From the NCBI GenBank assembly GCA_029939505.1, contig JAOZSV010000001.1:1-64000 (forward strand): a stretch of DNA of 64,000 bases, given 5' to 3'. The notes below the pieces were generated by a model. It did not search any database. It worked only from the letters and a program-made list of their open reading frames with translations, and was not told the origin of the DNA. This document shows, piece by piece, positions 13,515 through 59,815 of the stretch. How positions within the stretch are numbered: the first letter of the stretch is position 1; each line of letters starts with the position of its first letter. A program made the translations under genes and the position numbers. The DNA comes from Thiotrichaceae bacterium. Lineage in GTDB: Bacteria > Pseudomonadota > Gammaproteobacteria > Beggiatoales > Beggiatoaceae.

Positions 13515-13668
13515 TAGATAGTGTCCATCCGAAAACACCTCCAAAGCTAAAGCGTTGGACTCCAAGAGGCCCGTTGTTTGGAGCGTTGGACTCCAAGAGG
13601 CCCGTTGTTTGGAGTTCAACGCTTCAGCTTTGGGATTTTTAAAGCCGTTTCCGGATGGACACTAGATA
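13515..13668. mobile_element. MITE-like element copy 1: TIR GTGTCCATCCGRAAAC, 6-bp TSD TAGATA
   Basis: Element 13521-13662 (142 bp); TAGATA at 13515-13520 and 13663-13668; contains a 31-bp internal tandem duplication. Confidence 0.9.
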
Positions 13669-18603: not shown

Positions 18604-18713
18604 GTAGGTCGGGTTAGATGGCGCAGCAAAAAACGTAACCCGACACAGGCCATTTCTTAGGTAAATGTCGGGTTACGTTATCACGCGACGCTTGATAAGC
18701 TAACCCGACCTAC
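18604..18713. repeat. Palindromic element GTAGGTCGGGTTAG...CTAACCCGACCTAC (uninterrupted copy; related empty site for the MITE at 20105-20227)
   Basis: Outer TIR GTAGGTCGGGTTAG, inner inverted repeat ACGTAACCCGACA/TGTCGGGTTACGT; single TAGGTA at 18658-18663. Confidence 0.9.
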
Positions 18714-18746
18714 CATACTTGCCCACCATTTCGAACTTTAAAACCA

Positions 18747-18947
18747 GACCTGCCAGGTTAAAAAAAACCTGGCAGGTCAAGGCAGCGACCAAACTTGATT
18801 TTGACTTTGGTTTCGAGGTTCAAGTTTTTTGAAAAAAAACTTGAACCTCGAAGACTTTGACCTGGCAGGTTTTCTTTTGAACCTGCCAGGTCTGGTTTTG
18901 ACTTTGACCTGGCAGGTTTTCTTTTGAACCTGCCAGGTCTGGTTTCG
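18747..18947. repeat. Cluster of palindromes incl. GACCTGCCAGGTT...AACCTGGCAGGTC and a 47-bp tandem repeat (units from 18853 and 18900)
   Basis: GACTTTGACCTGGCAGGTTTTCTTTTGAACCTGCCAGGTCTGGTTT repeated with 47-bp period; plus hairpin at 18812-18852. Confidence 0.9.
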
Positions 18948-18969
18948 ACTTTGACTTGAAAGTTATTTC

Positions 18970-19209
18970 ATGAGCATTCCTAAAGACATTTCCATGATAA
19001 AGCACATAAAAGTTTCTCAATATCGCTGTTTTCATTCTTTGGATATTGAATTAACCCAGCATCAAGTTTTGGCAGGCGCAAATGGTTCAGGTAAAACGAC
19101 ATTGTTGGATATTCCTACATGATTCGGGGAACTTCTGGCCAGCAATGATATTAACTCCGTTTTCTTTGAACCCACCCCAAGCCAATTCGTTACCATTCGT
19201 TATCAAAGG
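18970..19209 (+). pseudogene. Truncated AAA/SMC-like ATPase relic with in-frame TGA
   Basis: MSIPKDISMIKHIKVSQYRCFHSLDIELTQHQVLAGANGSGKTTLLDIPT* (stop 19120-19122) followed in the same frame by FGELLASNDINSVFFEPTPSQFVTIRYQ. Confidence 0.75.
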
Positions 19210-19215
19210 AGAAAT

Positions 19216-19839
19216 ATGAACGACGCACAGAAAATCATTCAGAATGAACTGGATTTAGAAGAAAAACTTCTTTGGGCAGGCAAGCCAAAGCAAGGAATTG
19301 TGTTTCAAAAAGGTGATATTTTTATGATTCCGTTTAGTCTCTTATGGGGTGGCATGATCTTACTCATTGAAATTTTACTATCTTTTTTACTATTTTTTGG
19401 AGGAAAAGGAATAGAAGGAATTATCTTCGCTCACCTTTTTTTACTTCCATTTGTGATTATTGGGCTGCATATGATCTTTGGTCGTTTTATCACTGATTTA
19501 AAAAGACGTGCTAATACGTTCTATGGTTTAACCGATCAGCGAGCAATAATTATTTCTGGTATTTTTAGCAAAACGGTAAAAAGTTTAAATCTTATCTCAT
19601 TCAATGTGTCACTCTCTGAGAAATCCAATAAAAGTGGAACGATCACATTCGGGCAAGAAATGTCATTTTATTCGGCTTATGTTTGGAATTCTAATCATTG
19701 GCTTGGAATGGCTTCTAGCGTGCCGAAATTTGAATTCATTGAAAATGCCAAGGAGGTATATGATCAGATCAGCAAGCAGCAAAACATAAGTAAATGGTGT
19801 GGTAGTGCAGAAAAGCAGAAATTTCCGTATAACTTTTAG
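19216..19839 (+). CDS. Membrane protein with bacterial PH-like domain
   Basis: Two hydrophobic helices then FYGLTDQRAIIISGIFSKTVKSLNL (bPH-type); RBS AAAGGAGAAAT upstream. Confidence 0.55.
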   Translation: MNDAQKIIQNELDLEEKLLWAGKPKQGIVFQKGDIFMIPFSLLWGGMILLIEILLSFLLFFGGKGIEGIIFAHLFLLPFVIIGLHMIFGRFITDLKRRANTFYGLTDQRAIIISGIFSKTVKSLNLISFNVSLSEKSNKSGTITFGQEMSFYSAYVWNSNHWLGMASSVPKFEFIENAKEVYDQISKQQNISKWCGSAEKQKFPYNF

Positions 19840-20045
19840 GTGCAATGAGGGCGACCTATCTTTTCTGGTTCACACGCTAGCGATTTTTCTGGTTCCCATG
19901 CGCCAGTATCACTGCCATTAAGTTAAGCCTTGGAATCCATTCGAGGTTTTAGTTTTTTTTTCAAAAAAACTAAAACCTCGAATCCTTTAGATTTGGAGTC
20001 CAAACCTTTAGATTTGGAGTCCAAACCTTTAGATTTGGAAGTTAA

Positions 20046-20277
20046 GTAGGTCGGGTTAGATTTTTTTGCGCCAAAACGTAACCCGACACAGGCAACTTAT
20101 TAATTAGGTAGTGTCCATCCGGAAACACTTCAAAAGCGAAAGCGTTGGACTCCAAGAGGCGCATTGTTTGGACTTCAACGCTTCAGCTTTGGGATTTTAA
20201 AAGCCGTTTCCGGATGGACACTAGGTAAATGTCGGGTTACGTTATCACGCGACGCTTGATAAGCTAACCCGACCTAC
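20046..20277. repeat. Second copy of the GTAGGTCGGGTTAG palindromic element, interrupted by MITE copy 2
   Basis: Same ends and flanks as 18604-18713 but split at TAGGTA. Confidence 0.9.
20105..20227. mobile_element. MITE-like element copy 2: TIR GTGTCCATCCGGAAAC, 6-bp TSD TAGGTA
   Basis: Element 20111-20221 (111 bp); TAGGTA at 20105-20110 and 20222-20227; empty site at 18658-18663. Confidence 0.95.
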
Positions 20278-20397
20278 CATACTCCATTTTAAGTAGAGTA
20301 GGGTGGGCAACGTCTTTTTGTTGCCCACCATTTCGATCTACCAAAAATCCATTAAAGTTCATTCACCATTCACCATTAACCATTGCGATAAAAAAAA

Positions 20398-59676: not shown

Positions 59677-59691
59677 AAAACTATTTAGTGT

Positions 59692-59815
59692 CCATCCGGA
59701 AACGCCAGTTTATGTCATTTCGACGTGAGGAGAAATCTGGTTTGATCAGTCTGTTAAGATTTCTCGCTCCGCTCGAAATGACACAGAATTTGAGTTTCCG
59801 GATGGACACTATTTA
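59692..59815. mobile_element. MITE-like element copy 3: same TIR, unrelated interior, 6-bp TSD TATTTA
   Basis: Element 59698-59809 (112 bp); TATTTA at 59692-59697 and 59810-59815. Confidence 0.92.

Follow-up and report, generated by a model that had tools for sequence, protein, structure and literature searches.

Two related palindromic elements in the window, the whole stretch of 64,000 nucleotides analyzed here, raise the question of whether the longer one records the arrival of a mobile element. Both the single TAGGTA of the copy at 18604-18713 and the 111-bp insert of the copy at 20046-20277, with TAGGTA on either side, lie where the original prediction had placed them (Table 1). We consider it highly probable (about 0.92) that a non-autonomous, ISNCY-mobilized MITE inserted into the spacer of a REPIN and duplicated TAGGTA. 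The event is an ordinary insertion of a MITE into a REPIN, and both elements are of known kinds.

Table 1. Coordinates of the REPINs and MITEs in the window.
Feature	Position	Strand	Description
MITE copy 1, TIR GTGTCCATCCGGAAAC family	13521..13662	.	142 bp, duplication TAGATA
REPIN A (empty)	18604..18713	+	two inverted GTAG-tagged REPs, 110 bp; fold z = -9.0
REP of REPIN A	18604..18644	+	GTAG followed by GTCGGGTTA..TAACCCGAC hairpin
Single TAGGTA target, REPIN A spacer (empty site)	18658..18663	.	
Inverted REP of REPIN A	18667..18713	-	
REPIN B (filled), spacer interrupted by MITE	20046..20277	+	
REP of REPIN B	20046..20087	+	loop TTTTTTGCGCC, unlike REPIN A
Target duplication TAGGTA, left copy	20105..20110	.	
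MITE, 111 bp	20111..20221	.	16-bp perfect terminal inverted repeats GTGTCCATCCGGAAAC
Target duplication TAGGTA, right copy	20222..20227	.	
Inverted REP of REPIN B	20231..20277	-	identical to that of REPIN A
MITE copy 3, TIR GTGTCCATCCGGAAAC family	59688..59809	.	122 bp, different interior, duplication TATTTA

The window contains four exact copies of the element end GTAGGTCGGGTTAG, each of them an end of REPIN A or B; the chance expectation is 0.11 matches with up to two mismatches allowed. Comparison of the two copies revealed a direct repeat of 62 bp with 100% identity (18658-18719 and 20222-20283). The right boundary of the MITE is precise, since this repeat starts exactly at TAGGTA. The left boundary is supported by the other TAGGTA copy, without long identity. 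The left halves are unlike in both the REP loop (GGCGCAGCAAAA in REPIN A, TTTTTTGCGCCA in REPIN B) and the spacer (CATTTCT versus AACTTATTAAT), which is why the lengths of 110 and 232 bp do not sum exactly (232 = 110 + 111 + 6 + 5). Beyond the extended ends AGTTAA...CATACT the flanks share almost no similarity, and REPINs A and B are therefore independent copies. As their left sides differ by indels, the copy at 18604 is a paralogous empty site and not the ancestor of the filled copy. The claim that the window holds pre- and post-insertion states is thus borne out insofar as one REPIN is empty and one filled, but these are paralogous copies and not one locus. Similarly, the predicted alignment holds exactly at the right-hand TAGGTA, but not across the left halves with their indels.

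The outer element, which like the inner one was left unidentified in the original prediction, is a REPIN/BIME of the GTAG-tagged REP class. Each REP unit consists of GTAG followed by the GTCGGGTTA..TAACCCGAC hairpin, and the units form inverted pairs separated by a short linker, often in clusters. The pair folds far better than its shuffles (z = -9.0). There are 136 exact copies of the REP head in the host genome (G000; 5.58 Mb, 497 contigs). GTAG, the hairpin and the inverted REP pair with its linker are all features of the REPINs and BIMEs associated with RAYT (TnpA-REP) (PMC3116915, PMC3733652, PMC8266576), as are the many intergenic copies and the RAYT-like Y1 genes with the same REP downstream. 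Neither the sequence of the stem and loop nor the AGYNNN that is conserved ahead of GTAG was matched to a published family in this analysis. The six bases 5' of GTAG are non-random genome-wide and read AG[TC]NNN-GTAG (A in 48 and G in 44 of 58 heads); they may be a cleavage or recognition site of RAYT. The REP loops exist in several variants that interchange (ATGGCGC.., ATTTTTTTGCGC.., CTTATCAAGCG.., besides mixed forms), seen at 18604-18713, 20046-20277 and three further loci (L056, L064, L074), as if arms or loops had been swapped between copies.

Three Y1 transposase genes were found in G000. Two are RAYT-like, one of 229 aa on contig C393 and one of 138 aa on C143 that is apparently frameshifted. 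The cognate REP lies 60-130 nt downstream of the former and about 120 nt downstream of the latter; none was present upstream of either gene in the loci read. Both pass the Pfam Y1_Tnp cut-off. Their NF047646 scores of 68.5 and 69.1 bits fall below the curated cut-off of 80, which qualifies the RAYT label and not the REP structure. The third gene is IS200-like, with REP absent nearby.

The insert itself has the properties of a MITE: it is short (111 bp) and non-coding, has a 16-bp perfect terminal inverted repeat (TIR), and belongs to a dispersed family. Copies in G000 were gathered by pattern and by place. The TIR GTGTCCATCCGGAAAC occurs 59 times exactly and 71 times with at most one mismatch, and further copies are present in the genus's two other genomes (G001 and G002). 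MITE lengths in G000 range from 49 to 224 bp with interiors of several unrelated types, and the window's 111-bp MITE is 91-93% identical to other copies of that length. Exact duplications of at least 6 bp, all of them TANNTA or TANNNTA, flank 17 of the 28 TIR pairs in G000, and TANNTA adjoins 58 of 70 half-sites. Ten of the 28 pairs are without a matching full 6-bp duplication and have unlike flanks. Differing flanks, most of them TANNTA, were recorded at L009, L017, L038, L040, L047, L053, L054, L055 and L060; such pairs could be products of recombination between copies, or assembly joins or chimeras. Many contigs of G000 end within MITEs. An interior of the GTCATTTCGA type is framed by the same TIR at 59688-59809 and at L031, L043 and L079, as though the MITE TIRs enclosed various palindromes of the genome. 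A recognizable transposase ORF was absent from three single loci with unusual interiors (L030, L048, L084). Within the Beggiatoaceae, to which G000 may be related, the repeat-rich genome of Thiomargarita nelsonii likewise has many short elements with inverted repeats, including the hupL and dsrA MITEs, and such elements nest in other mobile elements (PMC4853749). The hupL MITE differs in having a 10-bp duplication, a 19-bp TIR and no known parent, whereas the family described here has duplications of 6-7 bp and an identified parent family.

Judged from the ends and the target, the MITE at 20111-20221 would have been moved by a DDE-type transposase, with an element of the ISNCY family (NF033593) as its putative source. 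About 220 bp inward of a one-mismatch TIR at C277:15000 in G000 lies the end of a transposase gene on the opposite strand, and the C-terminus of this transposase matches ISNCY NF033593 with E = 1.8e-19. The layout is the same on C433, where a second ISNCY remnant and a decayed TIR are about 200 bp apart. When G000 was searched with PF01609 for an intact autonomous partner, the C277 remnant was the only match near a TIR, and an ISNCY protein search of 40 genomes, G000 and 39 relatives, added the C433 remnant but returned no intact ISNCY transposase. What mobilized the MITE is therefore deduced from the decayed remnants and from elements that are only distantly related.

When 85,462 species genomes were searched with the C277 fragment, the relatives found were mostly in genomes of the Desulfobacterota type, together with one Chromatiales genome. 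Three complete ISNCY copies of 1683, 1678 and 1680 bp (L108, L111 and L112) are flanked by the duplications TAGCTA, TAACTA and TAATTA, respectively, the same kind of target as that of the MITE. Their ends read GTTTCCATCC.. or GTG[TC]CCATCC.., and at its right end L112 matches all 16 bp of the MITE TIR. The full-length ISNCY transposases reach 397-480 bits, where the cut-off is 325. Rhizobial plasmids carry further ISNCY copies, one of them annotated as ISMlo5-like, with duplications of TAGTCTA or TAAGCTA. Since such duplications flank the three complete copies as well as the rhizobial ones, TA(N2-3)TA is apparently the target rule of the ISNCY family in general. The MITE thus resembles the family (NF033593 transpos_ISNCY_1, including the ISMlo5-like copies) in the TIR motif GT..CCATCC.GAAAC, in the 6-7 bp TA(N2-3)TA duplications, and in the decayed transposase that adjoins a MITE-type TIR in G000. 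It differs from autonomous ISNCY elements (about 1.66-1.68 kb) in its family's lengths of 49-224 bp, in being geneless, and in interiors unrelated to the IS ends past the TIR. The autonomous ISNCY copies of G000 have decayed, and the MITE family there is probably orphaned. We take these NF033593 elements to be, probably, the ISDol1 group of ISfinder. A literature search found no paper joining any two of ISDol1, MITE and TANNTA, and the link between ISNCY and MITEs may so far be undescribed.

The position of the MITE within a REPIN could reflect active targeting, through a preference for the hairpin or the sequence, as some IS show for REPs. Three insertions fall within REPINs of this family or at their edges (20111 in the window, C121:14154 and C232:5981), one MITE borders a GTAGGGTGGGC palindrome (C431), and another lies at a REPIN edge in G002. 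Insertion of IS into REP sequences is known (Tobes and Pareja 2006, as cited in PMC3733652). However, intergenic TANNTA sites are abundant in REPINs and most MITE copies are located elsewhere. With about 1.2 TANNTA per REPIN head and roughly 950 intergenic TANNTA per Mb, 1.4 of about 45 insertions would be expected against the three observed (P about 0.17, or 0.05 counting four), a rough estimate in which coding sequence was defined by ORFs of 100 aa or more, and from the window alone. Insertion into REPINs is therefore not clearly above chance by this count, the insertion in the window is best regarded as fortuitous, and we consider active targeting unlikely. We give similarly little credence to the broader proposal that ISNCY-derived MITEs prefer REPINs as targets (TAGGTA in the spacer, TAAGTA at the REP head), such that two unrelated mobile systems share a safe intergenic niche and build compound elements. 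The likeness to the IS in REPs described in PMC3733652 and PMC8450116 (ISPpu9) lies in a mobile element inside a REP unit, and the difference in the MITE having no demonstrable specificity for a REP target.

To look for unoccupied sites, we joined the flanks of 14 MITE copies by script and searched the joined sequences against G001 and G002. Four of the joined sequences align without interruption to an orthologous context that has a single copy of the target. The site of the MITE at C220:5114 is empty in G002 (C446), upstream of a response-regulator-like gene; that of C20:894 is empty in G001 (C63); and those of C203 and C395 are empty in G002 (C90 and C300, respectively), a neighboring hairpin also being missing at C300. 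A seamlessly empty REPIN spacer on C167 of G002 has a left half nearer to REPIN B than that of the copy at 18604. Since several landing sites of the family are still empty in the sister species, the movement of the MITE is real. The suggested hunt for further empty sites has thus yielded at least three other MITE sites that are seamlessly empty at orthologous places, and MITE transposition with duplication of TAGGTA is backed family-wide by duplications, sister-species empty sites and autonomous relatives. The MITE at C93:58635 is common to G000 and G002 (C330), with the same flanks TAACTC and TAACTA. Activity of the family therefore predates the separation of these species, and it probably continued afterwards, given the sites empty in the sisters. 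At the place matching 20046, C886 of G002 has neither REPIN nor MITE, and the upstream sequence differs, which weakens the orthology. An orthologous flank of MITE copy 3 was not found in G001 or G002.

Precise excision of a MITE from the copy at 18604 would leave an identical single TAGGTA, and the site could then have been occupied once. This is very improbable: among the sampled loci, twelve different REPIN spacers contain one AGGTAAAT and are MITE-free, as are REPINs in G001 and G002, and the empty spacer is the ancestral state of the REPIN. A reading of the duplication as a tandem repeat with a 4-bp period (AGGTAGGT), and of the element as an IS630/mariner type with a TA duplication, fits the TA found immediately next to both TIRs in almost every copy, but it is scarcely credible given that the two sides of other copies show exact repeats of TAGATA, TATTTA, TAACTA, TAATTA and further sequences, that empty sites have one TANNTA, and that the linked transposase is ISNCY and not IS630.

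Insertion of an ISNCY-mobilized MITE into a REPIN spacer therefore remains our preferred reading. The ends, the duplication, the family copies, the empty sites and the autonomous relatives that share these ends and this target were all observed directly, and a plausible series of steps can be proposed. The REPIN, formed by two inverted GTAG-class REPs, was presumably spread by a RAYT Y1 transposase. An ISNCY transposase would recognize the TIR GTGTCCATCCGGAAAC and move the MITE in trans, probably cutting it at GTGTCC/GGACAC. The MITE would then be joined to TANNTA with a 6-bp stagger, here the TAGGTA of the REPIN linker, which would be duplicated as a result. The target begins and ends with TA, and a shorter stagger, with TA counted in the element, is thus possible; the sequence would allow a 2-, 4- or 6-bp reading of the cut positions.

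For one MITE family, these data amount to a clean demonstration of transposition from sequence alone. They also tie the family to ISNCY, a poorly characterized IS group, through shared ends and the TA(N2-3)TA target, and the orthologous filled and empty sites could serve to date its activity in the genus.

Several other repeats were seen in the course of the analysis. At C232:15214 (L037) half a MITE is directly followed by a REPIN cluster, possibly a reverse nesting in which a REPIN inserted into or truncated a MITE. In a palindromic repeat GGCACTTACTTAAGCGAATTTGG.. (L049), a MITE occupies TACTTA in G000, and at least six empty copies of the repeat are present in G002 (C592, C685, C122 and others). 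A dispersed hairpin family of the form TTCGAGG..AAGTTTTTT..CCTCGAA occurs at 18812-18852 and 19939-19983; a hairpin of this type at C395 (L050) is present in G000 and absent from the orthologous place in G002 (C300), which suggests mobility. Between the two REPINs, 18970-19122 holds the truncated start of an ATPase-like gene (ISIPKDISMIKHIKVSQYRCFHS..) that ends in a stop, and a stretch 95% identical to it is found in G002 (C738).
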